Shown here: in pieces, positions 13,711 through 24,466 of the stretch
Numbering within the stretch: position 1 is the first letter of the stretch
Layout of the letters: each line of letters begins with the position of its first letter
Assembly: GCA_937873695.1 (NCBI GenBank)
Contig: CALMYL010000006.1
Location: 353,185 to 417,184, forward strand
Reading direction: 5' to 3'
DNA: 64,000 nucleotides
Source of the DNA: an uncultured Ignavibacteria bacterium
Lineage (GTDB): Bacteria; Bacteroidota; Ignavibacteria; Tepidaquicellales; OLB5
The notes under the pieces: generated by a model
What the model was told of the DNA's origin: nothing
The model's input: the letters and a program-made list of their open reading frames with translations, nothing else
The model's database searches: none
Position numbers and translations under genes: made by a program

Positions 13711-15462
13711 TTACTTCAGCACTACCATCTTTTTTGTTTGGGTAAATTCAGTTGTAATTAGCGAATAAAAGTACACTCCGCTTGGGATATTTTCGGCGTT
13801 CCAGTCAATTTCGTAAATGCCGGGCTTGAGATTTTCATTCACCAACACTGCAATTTCTTTGCCGAGTACATCGTAAATTTTAAGGGAGACCCCAAGTTTG
13901 TCTCCCACTGAAAAACCAGTTCTTCGACCTGACAGGGGGAGATTTAGAGGGGGTATTTGAAAACGAATTTTTGTTGCCGGGTTAAACGGATTCGGATAAT
14001 TCTGGAACAGCTCATATTTTTGCGGGATTTCAGTATTTATCGGTTCAATTCCAATTGGCACGCAAGTCCTGAAATCGTTGTAATAATATTTCAGGGCTGA
14101 GTCTGATAACGATAGCAGCGCGCATACATTTTGGAAATTATTACCTCCGTCACGGGTTATCATATAACTCAATACTACAATTTGAGTATCAGCAGAGTTC
14201 ATTGTAACAGGACCGGTACTCATGAAATGCCTGTAATCACCAGCCACGCTGTCATACCAACCGGTTCTCTCACAGGCATTGCCATTATATCTAAAACATG
14301 TTTGCGCCCCGGTTAAATAATTTATATAAGGTTCACTGCAACCGTTAAGACCTCTCATATAATGGTAGGCCGTAATTGCATTATCAGGATCTGAAATACA
14401 ATAGTTTGTGCTTCCCGAAAAGAAGTTGAACGCGGTTAACCCATTCTGCTTGAATCCAATTAAAGTATCGTAAGGTAATTTAGCTGTATCAAAATTATTC
14501 CCCGTAAGTTTCAAAGGACTCTGTAAAAACCTTATCCCTATAGAAGGCGGATTTATACCATAGTCAATATCGTTATTATCAAAATTATAGTGGAATCCCA
14601 TACTACGAACTGTATCGCAACCAATGGCATCATCTTGCGAATCACCTAAATCCGGATCATTTACCATTGTAATAAATGTACTATCCCAAACCAGCGAGCT
14701 TTTATTGATTATGCGATATTTAATAAAATACATATCACGTAGAGGTACACAATTGAAGTTAAATACCATTTGTTGAATTTCTACTCCCAAGGGTAGGGTA
14801 CCTCCCGGAAGGGAAATTTCAGATGAGTGAATATTGTTAGTACAGTTAGTGTAATCCATGAATACCATAAACAGCAGCTCTTCAGGTCTGGCTGTCATCC
14901 CGTTTCCAATTCCCGGCCTGTCGCCATTCCATGCCGGCTGATAGCCGGGTATTCCGTTCACTTCAACATATGGAGCTCCTTTTTGTACGGGCCACGCTGC
15001 CCAGGAATCATAATTGAAAGTATATTGTCTTCCTCCTGCCATTTTGTATCGTGTACCGCCTGAAAACAGGGATTGATCATTTAAATGTACATAATAACCG
15101 CGCCATGATGGATCACTGCAAACAGATGATGGCGGCACCTGACCAATTACGGGAATGTTTCCGGGTGAATAATGTGTATTATAGAATGACGCTGCTAAGC
15201 GAAGTTCACGCTGGGGTCCGACCTTTGCGCCTATATACATACCTGAAGTAAACACTGCAGTTAATCTTTGTGTTGCACCGGCGGGCCAGATAAATCCCGC
15301 TGCGCCACTGGAAAAGGTTACTTTGTCATAATTGAAATATCCATCAGTTCTGAAAACTGCGTTGATGTTGTTGCCCTGCATAAAAATGCTTTGGGCAGGG
15401 GCTAGGCTTTGTGCATTAATGCTTAATGAAAATGCTAGCAAAATCAGAATAAAAGTCTTCAT
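13711..15462 (-). CDS. T9SS cargo paralogue 1 of tandem operon (last gene)
   Basis: 583 residues. Signal peptide 1-18 (MKTFILILLAFSLSINAQ). Residues 19-260 are nearly the same in all five paralogues (SLAPAQSIFMQGNNINAVF at the start). Residues 261-415 are the variable part; it opens with an Asp-rich NDPDLGDSQDDAIGCD (268-283) that looks like a calcium-binding loop. Residues 417-475 are conserved again. The sorting domain starts at 488 (NYPNPFNP) and contains a 23-residue insertion (about 504-526) encoded by inverted-repeat DNA. The start ATG overlaps the previous stop as ATGA. The last 300 bp are identical by eye to those of the gene at 22706-24466. Secreted; function not recognised. Confidence 0.87.
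   Translation of the reverse strand: MKTFILILLAFSLSINAQSLAPAQSIFMQGNNINAVFRTDGYFNYDKVTFSSGAAGFIWPAGATQRLTAVFTSGMYIGAKVGPQRELRLAASFYNTHYSPGNIPVIGQVPPSSVCSDPSWRGYYVHLNDQSLFSGGTRYKMAGGRQYTFNYDSWAAWPVQKGAPYVEVNGIPGYQPAWNGDRPGIGNGMTARPEELLFMVFMDYTNCTNNIHSSEISLPGGTLPLGVEIQQMVFNFNCVPLRDMYFIKYRIINKSSLVWDSTFITMVNDPDLGDSQDDAIGCDTVRSMGFHYNFDNNDIDYGINPPSIGIRFLQSPLKLTGNNFDTAKLPYDTLIGFKQNGLTAFNFFSGSTNYCISDPDNAITAYHYMRGLNGCSEPYINYLTGAQTCFRYNGNACERTGWYDSVAGDYRHFMSTGPVTMNSADTQIVVLSYMITRDGGNNFQNVCALLSLSDSALKYYYNDFRTCVPIGIEPINTEIPQKYELFQNYPNPFNPATKIRFQIPPLNLPLSGRRTGFSVGDKLGVSLKIYDVLGKEIAVLVNENLKPGIYEIDWNAENIPSGVYFYSLITTEFTQTKKMVVLK
13884..13906 (-). repeat. In-frame inverted repeat, type III (copy A)
   Basis: Arms GGGAGAC and GTCTCCC with a 9-nt spacer, part of an about 70-nt inserted segment (to about 13953) that also holds a CTCCCCCTGTCAGG-like stretch. 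It encodes part of residues 504-526 of the sorting domain of paralogue 1. Confidence 0.6.
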
Positions 15463-17171
15463 TTTAATACTACCATCTTTCTTGTTTGGGTAAATTCAGT
15501 TGTAATTAGCGAATAAAAGTACACTCCGCTTGGGATATTTTCGGCGTTCCAGTCGATCTCGTAAATGCCGGGCTTGAGATTTGCATTCACCAGCACGGCA
15601 ATTTCTTTGCCGAGTACGTCGTAAATTCTCATGGAGACGTCCCGCCGGGTCGTCTCTACAAAAGCAGGAATACTGAATTTTAATTTTGTTATGGGGTTAA
15701 ATGGATTCGGGTAATTCTGGAACAGCTCATATTTTTGCGGGATTTCAGTACTTATCGGTTCAATTCCAATTGGCACGCATGTTCTGAAATCGTTGTAATA
15801 ATATTTCAGGGCTGAATCAGATAATGATTGGAGCGCGCATACATTTTGGAAATTATTTCCGCCATCGCGAGATATCATATAGCTTGACATAACAATTTGT
15901 GTATCTCTGGAATTCATAACAAACGGACCAGAGCCAATGAAATTTTTCTTGTCAGCCGGCAAACTATCATACCAACCTGTGCGCTGACAAGCATTTCCGC
16001 TGTAAAGGAATTTTGTCGGATGCCCGGAAACCCAGTTTATCATCTGCCGACCGCATTCATCTAATCCTGTCAGATAGTAGTATGCTGTTGTATCTTTATC
16101 GGGATCACCATGACACAAACCGTTTTTAAATGAATTATGAGTCGTCATTCCGATTTGTTTAAATCCAGAAAGAGTGTCATATGGTAGTTTTGCTGTGTCG
16201 GTATTAACCCCGGTAAAACGCAACGGACTTTGTAATAATCTGATACCAACAGTCGGTGGATTTGTTCCATAATCAGAGTCATCATTATCGAAGTTGTAAA
16301 CAAATCCTAAATCCCTCGCTGTATCACAACCGGTTGCATCATCTCCTGCATTACCAAGATCCGAATCACTGCAAATTCCTATGTAAGTACTATCCCAAAC
16401 CAGTGAACTTTTATTGATAATTCTGTATTTTACAAAATACATATCCCGCAAAGGGAAACAATTAAAATTGAAGACAGTTTGTTGTATCTCTACACCCAAT
16501 GGTCTTGAGCCCCCCGGTAAACTTAACTCACTTGTATGAACTGAATCGGTACAATTAGTGTAATCCATATAAACCATAAACAAGATCTCTTCCGGTCTTG
16601 CTGTCATACCATTGCCGATACCGGGTCTGTCACCATCCCAGGCAGGCTGGTAACCGGGAATTCCGTTGACTTCTACATAAGGGGCGCCTTTTTCTACAGG
16701 CCATGCAGCCCATGAATCGTAATTGAATGTGTATTGCCTTCCTCCTGCCAATTTATTCCTTGTACCGCCTGAAAACAGGGATTGATCATTTAAATGTACA
16801 TAATAACCGCGCCAAGAAGGGTCACTGCAGATAGATGATGGCGGTACCTGCCCTATAACCGGTATATTGCCGGGTGAATAATGTGAATTGTATGTTGATG
16901 CGGCCAGTCTCAGTTCATGCTCAGGTCCGGCTTTCGCGCCAATCCATATACCTGTTGCAAAAATTGCAGTCATTCTTTGAGTAGCTGTTACGGGCCATAT
17001 AAATCCGGCTACACCGCTTGTAAAAGATACCTTATCATAATTAAAATAGCCGTCAGTCCTGAAAACTGCATTAATGTTATTACCCTGCATAAAAATGTTC
17101 TGAACCGGTGCGAGGCTCTGAGAATTAATGCTTGAAGTTAAGAAAAGTAAAACTAATATTAAAGTTTTCAT
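15459..17171 (-). CDS. T9SS cargo paralogue 2 of tandem operon
   Basis: 570 residues, same build as its neighbours: signal peptide about 1-17, conserved N-terminal half, variable centre with CSDSDLGNAGDDATGCD, conserved GPFVMNSRDTQIVMSSYMISRDGG block, linker VPIGIEPISTEIPQKYELF and a T9SS sorting domain. The sorting domain insertion here reads AFVETTRRDVSM and is encoded by a GAGACG-type palindrome (15634-15656). Both ends overlap the neighbours by 4 bp (ATGA), so translation is probably coupled along the operon. The central part differs strongly from the paralogues while the ends match. No enzymatic motif recognised. Confidence 0.87.
   Translation of the reverse strand: MKTLILVLLFLTSSINSQSLAPVQNIFMQGNNINAVFRTDGYFNYDKVSFTSGVAGFIWPVTATQRMTAIFATGIWIGAKAGPEHELRLAASTYNSHYSPGNIPVIGQVPPSSICSDPSWRGYYVHLNDQSLFSGGTRNKLAGGRQYTFNYDSWAAWPVEKGAPYVEVNGIPGYQPAWDGDRPGIGNGMTARPEEILFMVYMDYTNCTDSVHTSELSLPGGSRPLGVEIQQTVFNFNCFPLRDMYFVKYRIINKSSLVWDSTYIGICSDSDLGNAGDDATGCDTARDLGFVYNFDNDDSDYGTNPPTVGIRLLQSPLRFTGVNTDTAKLPYDTLSGFKQIGMTTHNSFKNGLCHGDPDKDTTAYYYLTGLDECGRQMINWVSGHPTKFLYSGNACQRTGWYDSLPADKKNFIGSGPFVMNSRDTQIVMSSYMISRDGGNNFQNVCALQSLSDSALKYYYNDFRTCVPIGIEPISTEIPQKYELFQNYPNPFNPITKLKFSIPAFVETTRRDVSMRIYDVLGKEIAVLVNANLKPGIYEIDWNAENIPSGVYFYSLITTEFTQTRKMVVLK
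15634..15656 (-). repeat. In-frame palindrome, type I (copy A)
   Basis: Arms GAGACGTCCC and GGGTCGTCTC (one mismatch) with a GCC spacer, inside the sorting domain of paralogue 2, 175 bp before its stop. Confidence 0.75.
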
Positions 17172-19276
17172 TTTACTATCACCATCTTTCTGGTTTGTCT
17201 ATAATTATCAGTAAAAAGTGAATAGAAATAAACACCGCTTGTGAAATTCGAAGCATTCCATTCGACTTCGTAAATTCCGGATGTGAGATTTTCGTTAACC
17301 AGCACAGCAATTTCTTTACCGAGTATATCGTAAATCTTCAGTGAGACGACCCGCAGGGTCGTCTCTGCAAAAGAGGGAATACTGAATCTTATTTTTGTTA
17401 CCGGGTTAAACGGGTTTGGATAATTCTGCAAAAGCATAAATCTTTCAGGAATTTCTGCTGAAATCGGGGTTATTCCAATTCCTCCGTTTGTAGTTCTCAT
17501 TATTCCGCCGTTATCACCCACAACCCAGCCGTGGTTTTCATCAATAAAAAATAGCGAACTTACTGAAATTGAATTGCTGTCAGTATTCTGTATACTCCAG
17601 TTCACGCCGCCGTTGGTGGTCTTCCTTATTATGTTGGAGGTGTTTACCCAGCCGGTTTCTGTATTGATAAAATACATATCTCCTCTGTAGCTTCCGCCTG
17701 TAGGGTATGATATCCAGTTTTCACCCATGTTCGTTGATCTCATAAAATTCCCGGCAGCAGAAGTAATGGCAAAACCAGTGACTCCAATAAACTGAATAGT
17801 TTGTGTTGTATTAACCAGAACCCTGTACCAGTTCACTCCTCCGTTTGTTGTTTTAAACATTCCGCTACCGCCTATAAGACCCGTATTTTCGTTGATGAAG
17901 AATAAGTCATTCACATACATATAACTTATTGGAGGGGTTGTTGTGATTGCGGTTTTTACCCAGGAATTTCCTGAATTAGTGGTTTTTATAATAGCACTGG
18001 AATTTCCTGCTGCCCAGCCGGTGTTTGGATTCAGGAAGTGAATAGAATTTATTTGTAATGAATCCCTGTAAACAAGCTGCCAACTGGCGCCCGAGTCCGT
18101 TGTCCTGAAGACGATACCCAAATACCCCTGTGTACCTCCGATATATCCGGTGATGTTGTTTACAAACAGCAGAGAGTTCAATGTATTTTCTGTACCAAGA
18201 TTCCGATAATTCCAGTTAACGCCTCCGCTAGTAGTGGTAAGCAAAACACCGTGAGTACCAACTGCATTACCTGTTGACTGGTTATTAAAAAAAACTGATT
18301 TGAGCCTTTCTTTGGTGAGATATTCTCTGTGTGCAATATCCCAGTCATTTCCATTGTTGAAAGATCTGAAAATTATTCCGCTATCAGAAGCACACCAGAT
18401 CGTATTTGCTTCAGCAATTGAAGCGGAGTAAACAATTGAAGAGAGTCCGTTTGCGTTATTTTGAAACCAGTTATTTCCGCTATTTGTAGTTTTCAGAAAT
18501 GCGAAAGGAGCGCCGAAAATGTATCCTGTGCTGGCCGAACTGAATTCGACAGTATTTTGTATTGAATAATTGGTAAAGTATGGCAGCCAGTTGGTTCCGC
18601 GGTTTGTTGTACGGTAAATAATACTGCCGGTACCCGTAACAATGCATGTTTGATTTCCCCCAAATTTTACGCCTGTAAAAAATCCCGTATAAATATCGTT
18701 AAAAAGATTCCAGTTAGCTCCGCCGTTTGTTGTAAAAAGTATTGTACCCCAGTCGCCACCACAGACCCCAAACTCGCTATCTGCAAATGCTATAGCGTTC
18801 AAATTATTGGCTGTGCCTGAACTTAAACTGACCCAATTATAGCCTGAGTTGGTGGTTTTCTTTATTACTCCTCCATAACCGCAGTACCATCCATTATTGC
18901 GGTCAAGAAAACAGATACTTTTTACATTGGAAACTGTTGTATCTGTCGTGATCCAGCTATTGCCGCTGTTTGAAGTGAAATGAATGTACTTTTCCTCAAA
19001 TACCCAACCCGTATCAATATTAAGGAATTGAAAACAATTCATTGAGTTGTAATTGTTGTGTGAAATTGTATGCTTGATCCAGCTTTGGGCGGCATTTGTT
19101 GTTTTCCTTACGTCATATTGCGTTAAAACCCACCCGGTCTGCTGGTTAAAAAATATGAGATCTTTGAAGTATGGACCGTAAATATACTCGCCTGAATAGA
19201 TTAATTCCCAGCCGCCCTGGGAGAATGTTGCTGTTTGAGATAAAATAAAAAGTAATGTTATAATAGTCTTTTTCAT
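17168..19276 (-). CDS. T9SS-exported Ycf48-type propeller inside the tandem operon
   Basis: 702 residues. Signal peptide 1-19 (MKKTIITLLFILSQTATFS). About fourteen blades marked by T-T-N-x-G-x-x-W repeats (KTTNSGYNW, FTTNGGANW, RTTNRGTNW, KTTNGGVNW and others), again compatible with two seven-bladed propellers. It is unrelated in its body to the five paralogues around it, yet it has the same 4-bp ATGA junctions, and its sorting domain carries the same kind of palindrome insertion (SFAETTLRVVSLK, DNA 17343-17365) and the LGKEIAVLVNENL segment of the paralogues. It may bind or scaffold the neighbouring proteins at the surface; that is inference from position only. Confidence 0.88.
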   Translation of the reverse strand: MKKTIITLLFILSQTATFSQGGWELIYSGEYIYGPYFKDLIFFNQQTGWVLTQYDVRKTTNAAQSWIKHTISHNNYNSMNCFQFLNIDTGWVFEEKYIHFTSNSGNSWITTDTTVSNVKSICFLDRNNGWYCGYGGVIKKTTNSGYNWVSLSSGTANNLNAIAFADSEFGVCGGDWGTILFTTNGGANWNLFNDIYTGFFTGVKFGGNQTCIVTGTGSIIYRTTNRGTNWLPYFTNYSIQNTVEFSSASTGYIFGAPFAFLKTTNSGNNWFQNNANGLSSIVYSASIAEANTIWCASDSGIIFRSFNNGNDWDIAHREYLTKERLKSVFFNNQSTGNAVGTHGVLLTTTSGGVNWNYRNLGTENTLNSLLFVNNITGYIGGTQGYLGIVFRTTDSGASWQLVYRDSLQINSIHFLNPNTGWAAGNSSAIIKTTNSGNSWVKTAITTTPPISYMYVNDLFFINENTGLIGGSGMFKTTNGGVNWYRVLVNTTQTIQFIGVTGFAITSAAGNFMRSTNMGENWISYPTGGSYRGDMYFINTETGWVNTSNIIRKTTNGGVNWSIQNTDSNSISVSSLFFIDENHGWVVGDNGGIMRTTNGGIGITPISAEIPERFMLLQNYPNPFNPVTKIRFSIPSFAETTLRVVSLKIYDILGKEIAVLVNENLTSGIYEVEWNASNFTSGVYFYSLFTDNYRQTRKMVIVK
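17343..17365 (-). repeat. In-frame palindrome, type I (copy B, perfect)
   Basis: Arms GAGACGACCC and GGGTCGTCTC pair over all 10 bp around a GCA spacer. It encodes ETTLRVVS in the sorting domain of the propeller protein, 175 bp before the stop. Confidence 0.8.
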
Positions 19277-20991
19277 TTTAACACCACCATTTTTTTTGTT
19301 TGGGTAAATTCATATGTAATTAGTGAATAAAAATACACGCCGCTTGGAATATTTTCAGCATTCCAGTCAATTTCGTAAATGCCGGGTTTGAGATTTTGGT
19401 TTACCGGCACCGCGATTTCTTTGCCAAGTACATCGTAAATTCTCAGGGAGACGACCCGCCGGGTCGATTCTGCAAAAGCGGGAATACTGAATCTGATTTT
19501 TGTAGCAGGATTAAACGGGTTCGGATAATTCTGGGACAGCTCAAATTTTTGGGGGATATCTGTACTTATCGGCTCAATTCCAATTGGCACGCATGTGCGG
19601 AAATCGTTGTAATAGTACTTTAACGCAGAATCAGATAGCGATTGCAGTGCGCATACATTCTGGAAATTATTACCGCCATCGCGGGTTATCATATAGCTTA
19701 ATACTACAATTTGTGTATCACCGGAGTTCGATTTAAAAGGACCGGAATTCTGAACATATCTTCTTTGACCCTGTACGCTGTCATACCATCCAACTCTTCT
19801 ACAAGCATCTCCGTTAAATCTGTATTTAGATGGTGCACCTGTTACCCAATTAATTAGCTGATTTCCGCACCCATCTAAACCCTGCATGAAACTATAAGCT
19901 CTTACTGCGTTTTCAGGATCACCGGTACATTCATTACCGGCATTCAAGAATTTATTATATGAAGTCATTCCTATTTGTTTATATCCAACTAGGGTATCAT
20001 ATGGTAATTTAGCGGTATCTGAATTACTTCCTGTAAAAACCAATGGGCTTTGAACAAATCTAGTTCCAAATGAAGGAGGATTTGGTCCATAATTTGGATC
20101 TGTATTGTTCATTTTGTACTGAAAACCAAGATCTCTGGTTGAATCACAACCTGCCGGCTCATCTGAAAAGTTTCCAATATCTGGGTCATTAGCAGAAGAA
20201 AAATAAACACTATCCCAGTTTAATGAACTTTTATTGATTACTCTGAATTTTGTGAAATACATATCACGCAATGGAATGCAATTAAAATTGAATACAATTT
20301 GCTGTACTTCTACACCCAAAGGTAATGTCCCTCCCGGAAGACTTAATTCACTTGAATGAATATTATCTGTGCAATTAGTATAATCCATAAACACCATAAA
20401 TAAAATTTCTTCGGGCCTTGCTGTCATTCCGTTGCCAATTCCGGGTCTGTCTCCATTCCAAGCGGGCTGATATCCGGGTATTCCGTTTACTTCAACATAA
20501 GGCGCGCCTTTTTGTACAGGCCACGCTGCCCATGAATCATAATTGAATGTATATTGCCTGCCACCTGCCATTTTATATCGTGTACCGCCCGCAAATAGCG
20601 ATGGGTCAGTAAGCTGAACATAATATCCTCTCCATGATGGGTCACTGCAGACTGATGATGGCGGAACCTGTCCAATAACCGGAATATTGCCCGGTGTATA
20701 GTGTGTATTATAGAATGATGCTGCTAGTCTAAGTTCCCGCTCGGGACCCACCTTTGCGCCTATCCAAATACCTGAAGTAAACACAGCGGTAAGCCTTTGC
20801 GGGGATGTTGCAGGCCAGATGAAACCTGCTTGACCGCTTGAAAAGGTAACTTTATCATAGTTGAAGTAACCGTCAGTTCTGAATACTGCGTTGATGTTGT
20901 TGCCCTGCATAAAAATGCTTTGGGCAGGGGCCAGTGATTGCGAATTTACGTTAATTGAGAAAAACAGAATTAGTAAAGATATCTTTTTCAT
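19273..20991 (-). CDS. T9SS cargo paralogue 3 of tandem operon
   Basis: 572 residues. Signal peptide about 1-17, then the conserved family N-terminus (SLAPAQSIFMQGNNINAVF), block NGMTARPEEILFMVFMDYTNC near 190-208, and a variable central region with ANDPDIGNFSDEPAGCDSTRD. The second conserved block SNSGDTQIVVLSYMITRDGG precedes the linker and sorting domain. The domain insertion reads AFAESTRRVVSLR, encoded by a partly decayed GAGACG palindrome (19448-19470). ATGA overlaps on both sides. The conserved ends and divergent centre fit a family whose central domain determines specificity; target unknown. Confidence 0.87.
   Translation of the reverse strand: MKKISLLILFFSINVNSQSLAPAQSIFMQGNNINAVFRTDGYFNYDKVTFSSGQAGFIWPATSPQRLTAVFTSGIWIGAKVGPERELRLAASFYNTHYTPGNIPVIGQVPPSSVCSDPSWRGYYVQLTDPSLFAGGTRYKMAGGRQYTFNYDSWAAWPVQKGAPYVEVNGIPGYQPAWNGDRPGIGNGMTARPEEILFMVFMDYTNCTDNIHSSELSLPGGTLPLGVEVQQIVFNFNCIPLRDMYFTKFRVINKSSLNWDSVYFSSANDPDIGNFSDEPAGCDSTRDLGFQYKMNNTDPNYGPNPPSFGTRFVQSPLVFTGSNSDTAKLPYDTLVGYKQIGMTSYNKFLNAGNECTGDPENAVRAYSFMQGLDGCGNQLINWVTGAPSKYRFNGDACRRVGWYDSVQGQRRYVQNSGPFKSNSGDTQIVVLSYMITRDGGNNFQNVCALQSLSDSALKYYYNDFRTCVPIGIEPISTDIPQKFELSQNYPNPFNPATKIRFSIPAFAESTRRVVSLRIYDVLGKEIAVPVNQNLKPGIYEIDWNAENIPSGVYFYSLITYEFTQTKKMVVLK
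19448..19470 (-). repeat. In-frame palindrome, type I (copy C, decayed)
   Basis: Arms GAGACGACCC and GGGTCGATTC with two mismatches around GCC. Same position in the sorting domain as copies A and B, 175 bp before the stop of paralogue 3. Confidence 0.7.
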
Positions 20992-22709
20992 TTTAAAACC
21001 ACCATTTTTTTTGTTTGGGTAAATTCTTCTGTAATAAGTGAATAAAAATACACACCGCTTGGAATATTTTCAGCATTCCAGTCGATTTCGTAAATGCCGG
21101 GTTTGAGGTTTTCGTTAACAAGCACAGCAATTTCTTTGCCGAGAACATCGTAAATTTTAAGTAACACACCCCGTCCTTCGGACACCCCTCTCGAGAGGGT
21201 AATATTAAATCTTATTTTTGTTATGGGGTTAAATGGATTCGGGTAATTCTGGAACAGCTCATATTTTTTAGGGATTTCAGTACTTACTGGCTGAATGCCT
21301 ATGGGAATGCATGTTCTGAAATCGTTGTAGTAATACTTCAGGGCAGAATCAGATAGCGACTGAAGCGCGCATACATTCTGGAAATTATTCCCGCCATCGC
21401 GGGTTATCATGTAGCTTAGCACTACAATTTGTGTATCACCGGAGTTCATTGTAACCGGACCCATATTTGAAAACGATCTCTTATCACCCGGCAAGCTGTC
21501 ATACCATCCCGTTCTTGTACAGGAATTCCCTGAAAACCGGAAAGTAGTTTCCTGATTTGTTAACCAGTTTATGATAGGTTCACTGCAGCCCCATTTGCCT
21601 CTCATATAATGATATGCATTTAAAGCATTATCGGGATCACCCTGACATTGATTTTGACCTCCAATAAAACCATTAAATCCTGACATATTGGTTAATTTGT
21701 ACCCAATCAATGTATCATAGGGGAGCTTTACGGTATCAAGATTACTATTAGTATATTTCATCGGTGATTGCAATATTCTAATGCCAAGAGCCGGCGGGTT
21801 AACGCCATAATCATAATCATTATTGTCAAAATTATAAGTAAAACCTAAATTTCTGGATGTATCGCATCCGTAAGCATCGTCACCAGCGTCCCCAACATCA
21901 GGATCGTTTATATTTGTTATGTAGGTACTATCCCATACGGTATTACTTTTGTTAATTATCCTGTATTTAATGAAATACATATCACGCAAAGGGATACAAT
22001 TGAAATTGAATACCAATTGATGAACTTCAACTCCCAAAGGCAAAGTACCGCCAGGAAGATCAATTTCAGATGAATGTATAGTATCCCTGCAGTTAGTGTA
22101 ATCCATAAAAACCATGAAGAGCAGTTCTTCAGGTCTGGCCGTCATTCCATTGCCTATTCCGGGTCTGTCGCCATTCCATGCAGGCTGATAGCCGGGGATT
22201 CCATTGACTTCAACATATGGCGCACCTTTCTGCACAGGCCAGCTTGCCCATGAATCATAATTGAAAGTGAATTGCCTTCCTCCTGTTGTCTTATATCTTG
22301 TGCCGCCCGAATACAGAGAAGGGTCAGTTAGCTGGACATAATAACCCCGCCAGGAAGGATCATCACATACTGAAGATGGCGGAACCTGCCCAATTACCGG
22401 AATATTGCCCGGTGTATAGTGTGAATTAAACATTGAAGCTGAAAGCCTCAATGTTCTTTGAGTACCGGTTTTAGCTCCAATCCACAGTCCCGAAGCGAAT
22501 ACATCGGTTAATCTTTGAGGTGCAGTTACCGGCCATATAAAACCGGCTACACCGGAAGGGAATGTAACTCTATCGTAATTAAAATAGCCGTCAGTTCTGA
22601 AAACTGTGTTAATATTGTTGCCCTGCATAAAAATATTTTGAACAGGTGCAAGACTTTGTGCATTAAGACTTAATGAATATGTAAGTAAAAGCAGAATAAA
22701 TATTTTCAT
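20988..22709 (-). CDS. T9SS cargo paralogue 4 of tandem operon
   Basis: 573 residues, signal peptide 1-17 (MKIFILLLLTYSLSLNA). The N-terminal half is conserved but reads NTVFRTDGYFNYDRVTFPSG, a variant shared with the gene upstream of it. The variable centre carries INDPDVGDAGDDAYGCDTSR. Its sorting domain insertion differs from all others: TLSRGVSEGRGVLLK, encoded by DNA at 21167-21199 made of two hairpins (GTCC-TTC-GGAC and the 14-bp palindrome CCCTCTCGAGAGGG). Junctions with both neighbours are ATGA overlaps. Secreted, function not recognised. Confidence 0.87.
   Translation of the reverse strand: MKIFILLLLTYSLSLNAQSLAPVQNIFMQGNNINTVFRTDGYFNYDRVTFPSGVAGFIWPVTAPQRLTDVFASGLWIGAKTGTQRTLRLSASMFNSHYTPGNIPVIGQVPPSSVCDDPSWRGYYVQLTDPSLYSGGTRYKTTGGRQFTFNYDSWASWPVQKGAPYVEVNGIPGYQPAWNGDRPGIGNGMTARPEELLFMVFMDYTNCRDTIHSSEIDLPGGTLPLGVEVHQLVFNFNCIPLRDMYFIKYRIINKSNTVWDSTYITNINDPDVGDAGDDAYGCDTSRNLGFTYNFDNNDYDYGVNPPALGIRILQSPMKYTNSNLDTVKLPYDTLIGYKLTNMSGFNGFIGGQNQCQGDPDNALNAYHYMRGKWGCSEPIINWLTNQETTFRFSGNSCTRTGWYDSLPGDKRSFSNMGPVTMNSGDTQIVVLSYMITRDGGNNFQNVCALQSLSDSALKYYYNDFRTCIPIGIQPVSTEIPKKYELFQNYPNPFNPITKIRFNITLSRGVSEGRGVLLKIYDVLGKEIAVLVNENLKPGIYEIDWNAENIPSGVYFYSLITEEFTQTKKMVVLK
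21167..21199 (-). repeat. In-frame double-hairpin repeat, type II
   Basis: Contains GTCC-TTC-GGAC (21173-21183) followed by the perfect 14-bp palindrome CCCTCTCGAGAGGG (21186-21199). It sits at the same sorting-domain site as the type I copies, in paralogue 4. Confidence 0.7.
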
Positions 22710-24466
22710 TTCAGCACCACCATCTTTTTTGTTTGGGTAAATTCAGTTGTAATTAGCGAATAAAAGTACACTCCGCTTGGGATATTTTCGGCGTTCCAGT
22801 CAATTTCGTAAATGCCGGGCTTGAGATTTTCATTCACCAACACTGCAATTTCTTTGCCGAGTACATCGTAAATTTTAAGGGAGACCCCAAGTTTGTCTCC
22901 CACTGAAAAACCAGTTCTTCGACCTGACAGGGGGAGATTTAGAGGGGGTATTTGAAAACGAATTTTTGTTGCCGGGTTAAACGGATTCGGATAATTCTGG
23001 AACAGCTCATATTTTTGAGGGATTTCAGTACTTATCGGTTCAATCCCAATTGGCACGCATGTTCTGAAATCGTTGTAATAATATTTCAGGGCTGAATCTG
23101 ATATCGATTGCAGCGCGCAAACATTCTGCAGATTATTGCCGCCATCGCGGGTTATCATGTAGCTTAGCACTACAATTTGTGTATCACCGGAGTTCATTGT
23201 AACCGGACCAGTATTAAATAAACCTCTGGAGTCTCCCTGGCTGCTATCATACCATCCAGTTCGGTTGCATGCGTTACCTGAAAACTTGAAAGAAGTAGGC
23301 TTACCTGTTACAAAATTGTAAAATGTATTTCCACATCCATCTTTGCCCCGCATAAAATTATATGCATATTCAGCTAAATCCGGATCACCCGTGCATTCAT
23401 TACCACCTCCAACAAAATAAGTAAAGCCGGTTAAACCTGTTAATTTAAATCCAATTAAAGTATCATATGGTAATATTGCTGTATCACTATTTAGACCGGT
23501 ATTATTGATTGGACTTTGTACAACTTTCATACCCACAGCAGGTGGATTCATACCATAATCCTGATCGTTATTATCAAAATTGTATTGATAAACCAAATTC
23601 CTAACAGAATCACTTCCAACAGCATCGTCTGATGACTCACCTAAATCGGGATCATTAGCCATTGATATATAAGTACTATCCCAATTCAGAGAACTTCTGT
23701 TAATAATTCTGTACTTAATAAAATACATATCACGCAGGGGAAAACAGTTAAACATAAAATTAATTTGTTGTATTTCTACACCCATAGGTAATGTTCCGCC
23801 GGGAAGAGATAACTCTTGAAAATGCTGAGTATTTGTACAATTTGTGTAATCCATGTAGACAAAGAAGGATAGCTCCTCGGGTCTTGCAGTCATTCCATTG
23901 CCAATTCCCGGTCTGTCACCATCCCAGGCAGGCTGGTAACCCGGTATACCGTTTACTTCAACATACGGCGCGCCTTTTTGTACCGGCCAAGCTGCCCATG
24001 AGTCATAATTGAAAGTGTACTGCCTTCCTCCTGCCATTTTGTATCGTGTACCGCCTGTAAATAGTGTAGGGTCGGTTAGCTGAACATAATAACCGCGCCA
24101 TGAAGGGTCACTGCACACTGATGATGGCGGCACCTGGCCAATTACAGGAATGTTGCCCGGAGAGTAATGTGTATTATAGAATGACGCTGCTAAGCGAAGT
24201 TCACGCTGGGGTCCGACCTTTGCGCCAATCCAAATACCTGAAGTAAACACAGCGGTAAGCCTTTGAGGTGCAGTTGCCGGCCATATAAAACCGGCTACAC
24301 CGGAAGGGAATGTAACTCTATCATAATTAAAATATCCGTCAGTTCTGAAAACTGCATTAATGTTGTTGCCCTGCATGAAAATTGACTGTGCGGGTGCCAG
24401 AGACTGTGATTGGATTATTGACGCTGCTGCCAATAAGAGAATAATAAGATATACGAGGGTTTTCAT
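22706..24466 (-). CDS. T9SS cargo paralogue 5, first gene of the tandem operon
   Basis: 586 residues. Signal peptide 1-20 (MKTLVYLIILLLAAASIIQS). Conserved family N-terminus; variable centre with ANDPDLGESSDDAVGSDSVR, in which the usual Cys of GCD is Ser (VGSD). Second conserved block and linker VPIGIEPISTEIPQKYELF follow, then a sorting domain with the same 23-residue insertion as paralogue 1 (PPLNLPLSGRRTGF and onward). The first gene of the operon, with a promoter-like sequence just upstream. Its last 300 bp match those of paralogue 1, and a shorter stretch near 24170-24230 also matches paralogue 1, so these genes look like a conversion mosaic. Confidence 0.87.
   Translation of the reverse strand: MKTLVYLIILLLAAASIIQSQSLAPAQSIFMQGNNINAVFRTDGYFNYDRVTFPSGVAGFIWPATAPQRLTAVFTSGIWIGAKVGPQRELRLAASFYNTHYSPGNIPVIGQVPPSSVCSDPSWRGYYVQLTDPTLFTGGTRYKMAGGRQYTFNYDSWAAWPVQKGAPYVEVNGIPGYQPAWDGDRPGIGNGMTARPEELSFFVYMDYTNCTNTQHFQELSLPGGTLPMGVEIQQINFMFNCFPLRDMYFIKYRIINRSSLNWDSTYISMANDPDLGESSDDAVGSDSVRNLVYQYNFDNNDQDYGMNPPAVGMKVVQSPINNTGLNSDTAILPYDTLIGFKLTGLTGFTYFVGGGNECTGDPDLAEYAYNFMRGKDGCGNTFYNFVTGKPTSFKFSGNACNRTGWYDSSQGDSRGLFNTGPVTMNSGDTQIVVLSYMITRDGGNNLQNVCALQSISDSALKYYYNDFRTCVPIGIEPISTEIPQKYELFQNYPNPFNPATKIRFQIPPLNLPLSGRRTGFSVGDKLGVSLKIYDVLGKEIAVLVNENLKPGIYEIDWNAENIPSGVYFYSLITTEFTQTKKMVVLK
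22882..22904 (-). repeat. In-frame inverted repeat, type III (copy B)
   Basis: Same sequence as the copy at 13884-13906 (arms GGGAGAC / GTCTCCC) with the same flanking insert, in the sorting domain of paralogue 5. Confidence 0.6.

Follow-up and report, generated by a model that had tools for sequence, protein, structure and literature searches.

Palindromic elements, among them a RAYT-linked REP, recur in two turns of type IX secretion sorting domains in a genus of Ignavibacteria

The window analysed here, a 64,000-nt stretch of contig CALMYL010000006.1 of an uncultured Ignavibacteria bacterium (assembly GCA_937873695.1, positions 353,185–417,184), contains an array of six consecutive, overlapping minus-strand genes for proteins of the type IX secretion system (T9SS), all of which carry a palindromic insert at the same place in the C-terminal sorting domain. 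This place, between strands 1 and 2, is referred to as loop a, and the turn between the last two strands as loop b. Three of the genes hold the short palindromic element R1, the main subject of this report, and the other three hold the elements R2 and R4, as follows.

15634..15660, minus strand: R1 in gene 15459-17171, loop a; 27 nt with the TGTA foot counted; encodes VETTRRDVS; the arms are an A-type/T-type hybrid.
17343..17369, minus strand: R1 in the YCF48-like T9SS protein 17168-19276, loop a; arms perfect, foot decayed to TGCA; encodes AETTLRVVS.
19448..19474, minus strand: R1 in gene 19273-20991, loop a; two mismatches in the arms, foot TGCA; encodes AESTRRVVS.
21163..21200, minus strand: R2 (CCCCTCTCGAGAGGGGTG + small hairpin + GGGGTGTGTT) in gene 20988-22709, loop a; its first base has decayed; encodes TLSRGVSEGRGVL.
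13891..13952, minus strand: R4 (CCCCCTCTAAATCTCCCCC...) in gene 13711-15462, loop a; encodes PLNLPLSGRRTGFSVGDKLG.
22886..22947, minus strand: R4, in loop a of gene 22706-24466.
13711..24466, minus strand: the whole array, six T9SS genes that follow and overlap one another, with loop a inserts in all (R4, R1, R1, R1, R2, R4).

The R1 palindromes of the window (10 + 3 + 10 nt) were located at 15634-15656, 17343-17365 and 19448-19470, with 9, 10 and 8 of the 10 arm pairs intact, respectively, each starting 175 bp away from the lower-numbered end of its own gene's stop codon. All three keep the reading frame and lie between strands 1 and 2 of the Por_Secre_tail sorting domain (PF18962/TIGR04183); matches to TIGR04183/PF18962 at the C-terminus were above cut-off in the tested window genes, identifying a T9SS type A sorting domain. 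Six arm matches were found in the window against 1.07 expected, a number reached in none of 100 shuffles. These coordinates and domain matches agree with an earlier note on this DNA, which had described one palindrome in three genes, 175 bp before the stop and between strands 1 and 2, in copies ranging from perfect to decayed. The same note had stated that the remaining sorting domains of the window lack the palindrome, which is correct for R1, but the R2 and R4 inserts in the same loop of the three neighbouring genes (13711-15462, 20988-22709 and 22706-24466) had been overlooked.

A search of the whole genome for the arms, as proposed in that note, returned further R1 copies, both coding and intergenic, and the lack of other copies, which the note had named as counter-evidence, is thereby ruled out. 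In the genome of the window (G000, hereafter the own genome; 3.78 Mb in 30 contigs; the other G-numbers are labels of other genomes), R1 was found at 16 places with at most 3 mismatches, and the reversed control at 0. Seven of these lie in sorting domains (loop a, three in the window and one in reverse orientation; loop b, three), one inside a transposase gene, and eight in non-coding DNA, and two further, decayed loop b copies adjoin one of these. Chance, or common protein ancestry of an ordinary loop, would be in keeping with the homologous domains of the three window genes, but is refuted by the intergenic copies, by the count of 16 against 0 in the control, and by the presence of both orientations, and the probability left to it is negligible.

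Oriented R1 copies share TGTA directly 5' of the arms (before GAGACG in the non-coding copies), with pyrimidines favoured ahead of it, and no clear motif was found 3' of the hairpin among them. Because TGTA is common to these copies, the R1 unit was defined as 27 nt, TGTA-GAGACGACCC-NNN-GGGTCGTCTC, the arms being also written TGTAGAGACGACCC-NNN-GGGTCGTCTC. In the GTA-G ahead of the arms of 66 non-coding copies, the preceding T was present in 91% and the middle T in 95%, positions not fully fixed by the way in which orientation was set, which relied in part on the G and A of the foot. One arm position is variable, and it was complementary to its partner in 38 of 40 coding copies, giving three pair types (A-, T- and C-type arms). 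About ten T-type copies were observed in non-coding DNA at G002:C6:394500-403500, partly as a regular tandem array (pairs 53 nt apart, period ~240 nt). R1 is a repetitive extragenic palindromic (REP) element of the GTAG superfamily: GTAG stands at one end of a palindrome of 20–40 nt, the copies are dispersed and mainly intergenic, and a REP-associated tyrosine transposase (RAYT) gene occurs with the same REP (a REPtron). In Rfam, no family matched at gathering scores.

The RAYT gene of the own genome (C8:413434-413967) lies between ribD-like and ribE-like genes (named by eye from their translations) and encodes a 178-aa Y1 transposase, in which the HUH motif MPNHFHGII and the catalytic tyrosine region YIHYNP were read. 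One R1 copy lies in frame between the HUH motif and the SIGSIIGQFK helix, and another just upstream of the gene. The protein matched NF047646 (REP-associated tyrosine transposase) with an E-value of 2.7e-17 and 63 bits, the curated cut-off being 80, and PF01797 with 18.3 bits against 23; the in-frame insert probably lowers the model score. R1 was not found directly flanking the eight best Y1_Tnp matches, and the R1-linked RAYT, which this Pfam search did not pick up, was found via its internal palindrome. G005, G009 and G010 show the layout of the own genome, with R1 near the gene and inside it, between HuH and Y, and related RAYTs in further genomes have their own, different hairpins around the gene, often inside as well. 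In the RAYT genes of G030:C91 and G020:C240, the internal loop has grown into tandem peptides (VETPNVVETPNVV..., GNQTGNVIAPGNQTG...), apparently derived from repeated in-frame hairpins. R1 is probably copied around by the RAYT of its own genome, which would supply the catalysis.

R1 was present in 13 of 13 genomes of the genus, at 1 to 34 copies each. For classification, 97 copies were taken from the listed places in five genomes and from the RAYT loci; 63 were non-coding (no open reading frame, ORF), loop a accounted for 25, loop b for 5, RAYT genes for 4 and other genes for 0, with two copies cut by contig ends, at first classed as 'other ORF', counted as loop a. Loops a and b make up 0.3–0.6% of coding DNA by a crude estimate. 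Both orientations were found in loop a (VETTRRVVS and ETTHRVVST), and in loop b the reverse one. In a scan of 395 sampled Bacteroidota genomes (variable spacing, own and sister genomes as positive controls), R1 behind the ATTCC of loop a was confined to this genus, bar one copy elsewhere outside a sorting domain. R1-like palindromes, among the matches listed, occur in many phyla, some of them in frame in ordinary enzymes. In an argininosuccinate lyase (Anaerolineae Prado100, contig positions 3-1355, minus strand), two in-frame R1-type palindromes lie shortly past the motif GKLHTGRSRNDQ, and in a P-type cation ATPase (Peregrinibacteria, contig positions 6489-8000, minus strand), one lies immediately ahead of the FLGLIGMIDPPRPE motif.

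R2 is built from ATT-CCCCTCTYGAGAGGGGTG, a small, highly variable hairpin, and GGGGTGTGTT, and was likewise present in 13 of 13 genomes of the genus. Its 82 copies comprised 45 non-coding, 34 in loop a, and 3 mid-protein in one other T9SS family, so that 34 of 37 coding copies lie in loop a; no transposase was identified for R2. Its frame is conserved (CCCCTCT..AGAGGGG ... GGGGTGTGTT), and the central hairpin is near-arbitrary yet paired (L342 in G002, L364 in G008, and others). Apart from loop a, R2 was seen at just one coding site in the genus, near residue 500 of a T9SS protein and away from its sorting domain (SNKLIPLSRGVTAEGSRGVYV; loci L280, L290 and L355, in sister genomes). R4 occupies the same loop a point as R1 and R2, and is poorly defined as a family, since matches to the reversed control are just as frequent. 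Loop a is thus a hot spot for two to three unrelated hairpin elements. At G002:C6:364600-367600, two tandem sorting domains carry a further repeat in loop b, CCTTCGACAGGCTCAGG, which encodes SPSTGSGRGF.

In alignments, sorting domains with R1 were exactly five residues longer than those without it, at both loops, and since R1 encodes nine residues, a native four-codon turn has been replaced. A clean 27-nt insertion was also considered, and was ruled out by the same net gain. The earlier picture of a mobile palindrome family tolerated in a coding loop is supported in kind by the further coding and intergenic copies and by the linked RAYT; the element also takes the place of a turn, with a net gain of five residues and not nine. 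In a pair of genes whose cargo is 87% identical, the empty site reads ATTCC-TCAGGTGGAA-TT and the filled one ATTCC-R2-TT, and in loop b the R1 foot TACA coincides with native TTTACAGAA; the native bases beside the inserts therefore match the element's own ends. In an AlphaFold model (mean predicted local distance difference test score, pLDDT, 77.5), strands 24-31 and 40-47 enclose loop a, and strands 79-86 and 91-98 enclose loop b; both insert sites are predicted hairpin turns, and the RVVS end of the R1 peptide is modelled as the start of the next strand.

The R1 insert of the YCF48-like gene 17168 was also found in the counterparts of G005, G002 and G008, so this copy is probably old. Genes 13711-15462 and 22706-24466 are 75% identical in cargo DNA and 99–100% identical in their sorting domains, including R4, which identifies gene conversion of the whole domain. 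Because the 17168 insert recurs in counterparts from three sister species, and gene conversion exchanges sorting domains within the array, the three R1 copies of the window are not three independent landings; inheritance and conversion account for them at least in part. Different elements can also occupy the same loop in orthologs: gene 15462-17198 of the own genome carries R1, and its counterpart in G002, with 83% identical cargo, carries R2.

Third codon positions of 22 forward loop a copies had an identity of 0.88 within R1 against 0.51 in the flanks, and for the 105 most divergent pairs these values were 0.89 and 0.41. In a tree of 150 sorting domains, built with the loop removed and with branches filtered by the Shimodaira-Hasegawa-like approximate likelihood ratio test (SH-aLRT), at least 13 changes of state were required for R1 and 14 for R2 at SH-aLRT >= 80, and 6 and 8 at >= 90, which points to repeated gain, loss or exchange. 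Compared with shuffled labels, changes were fewer (14 against 24.5 for R1, and 19 against 32 for R2), so inheritance contributed as well. A history in which each element was inserted just once or twice, long ago, and then spread only through duplicated and gene-converted sorting domains, with no later mobility into the loops, would agree with this deficit of changes, with the identical boundaries of forward loop a copies, and with the whole-domain conversion within the array. Such a history is unlikely: the flank third positions of the most divergent pairs are saturated while R1 remains conserved, the A-, T- and C-type arms have kept their pairing, R1 occurs in both orientations and in two loops, and the changes required on the tree number at least 13–14 for each element at the lower threshold, and 6–8 at the higher.

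RAYT-linked mobility, combined with survival in replaceable turns of a common domain and followed by inheritance, conversion and exchange, is likely to be the best explanation. R1 would be mobilised by the RAYT (TnpA_REP, HUH/Y1) described above and its relatives, and most new copies would fall between genes. In-frame copies would survive where the peptide V-E-T-T-R-R-V-V-S can stand in for a beta-hairpin turn, candidate sites being loops a and b of the numerous T9SS sorting domains. There R1 would be swapped for the native four-codon turn, with adjoining native bases matching the ends of the element, and the inserts would then be inherited, converted among tandem paralogs together with the whole sorting domain, or replaced by R2 or R4. 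Changes in the loops would be close to neutral and tolerance would be the main filter, and the end motifs may add a target preference.

Several points weigh against this explanation. The near-identical R1 boundaries of all forward loop a copies also fit a single old insertion followed by spread, transposition was observed in no case, the RAYT of the own genome falls short of the curated NCBIfam threshold (63 bits, 80 being required), and tolerance alone leaves unexplained why no other protein of the genus has an in-frame R1, though proteins of other phyla do. Even if no more than 5% of coding DNA were tolerant, five independent origins (R1 a-forward, R1 a-reverse, R1 in loop b, R2 and R4) would all fall in the loops with P ~2e-5 or less, an estimate that depends on our own assumptions of 5% tolerance and five independent origins. 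The near-exclusive placement of R1 in sorting domains may reflect target matching at the conserved ATTCC/TTTACA codons, or a benefit of loop variation. A stronger form of this idea, in which the sorting-domain turns are a true landing site of several unrelated mobile hairpins, short end homology (ATTCC in loop a, TTTACA in loop b) directs the elements, and loop variation benefits the cell or is at least actively recycled, is quite unlikely. Selection might instead keep the hairpin, for a structure that it forms in DNA or RNA close to the 3' end or for useful loop variation, and make the loops in effect a programmed variable site; arm conservation in excess of codon constraint, variable arms that remain complementary, a loop common to two to three unrelated hairpins, and orthologs with different elements are all compatible with this. 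We regard such selection as very doubtful, given that 83 of 150 sampled sorting domains had no insert although the sample was enriched for inserts, that two of the three window copies are decaying (8–9 of 10 pairs), and that recent mobility accounts equally well for the high conservation.

Each genome has far more than a hundred copies of the domain that harbours this hot spot, and both filled and empty sites are found throughout the genus, which provides a natural experiment on what RAYT-linked elements insert beside, on how host sequence is replaced and not merely lengthened, and on whether the tags of secreted proteins tolerate or exploit inserts. Recurring odd peptides in T9SS proteins (VETTRRVVS, PLSRGVSEGRGV) are accounted for as mobile DNA.

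Cyanobacterial small dispersed repeats are tiny mobile hairpins of 21–27 nt, which R1 resembles, by description only, in size and hairpin form. REP elements are supposedly extragenic. In-frame REPs are nevertheless already known (PMC3733652, Di Nocera et al. 2013), as are REPs inside RAYT genes (PMC6006769, Quentin et al. 2018). For REPs in T9SS sorting domains, nothing was found in the open-access literature, subscription papers being mostly uncovered, and the sorting-domain hot spot appears to be new.

The earlier note had likened the palindrome to Rickettsia palindromic elements (RPE), which, as cited in PMC3733652, share with R1 the presence of in-frame palindromes in functional proteins. 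R1 is set apart from them by its host phylum and RAYT link; RPE-4 and RPE-6 were assigned to the CGTC class, for which a RAYT link is unreported (PMC3733652). An element of the Rickettsia type, moving without a transposase, is extremely improbable here, being disfavoured by the GTAG foot, the linked RAYT with internal copies, the 27-nt length, and the Bacteroidota host; the comparison gives way to a GTAG REP tied to a RAYT.

In PMC6006769, TnpA_REP subclass 2.4 is described from Cyanobacteria, Bacteroidetes and various phyla, with a REP in frame inside the transposase gene and the motifs NH[IFV]H, WQ and YIxNNP; T9SS sorting domains go unmentioned in the part consulted. The RAYT of the own genome has NHFH, WQ and the internal REP between HuH and Y, with YIHYNP in place of YIxNNP. 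GTAG REPs are 20–40 bp palindromes with a GTAG foot, mostly intergenic and forming REPtrons with a RAYT, and some lie in frame in genes, where loops were proposed as tolerated sites (PMC3733652). R1 is like them in foot, palindrome size, mainly intergenic distribution, RAYT link and in-frame copies. The intragenic REPs of that study are scattered over unrelated proteins, DNA repair genes being prominent, whereas the in-frame copies of R1 lie nearly all in two turns of one domain family, at sites which, unlike those of the intragenic REPs, are shared with unrelated palindromes.
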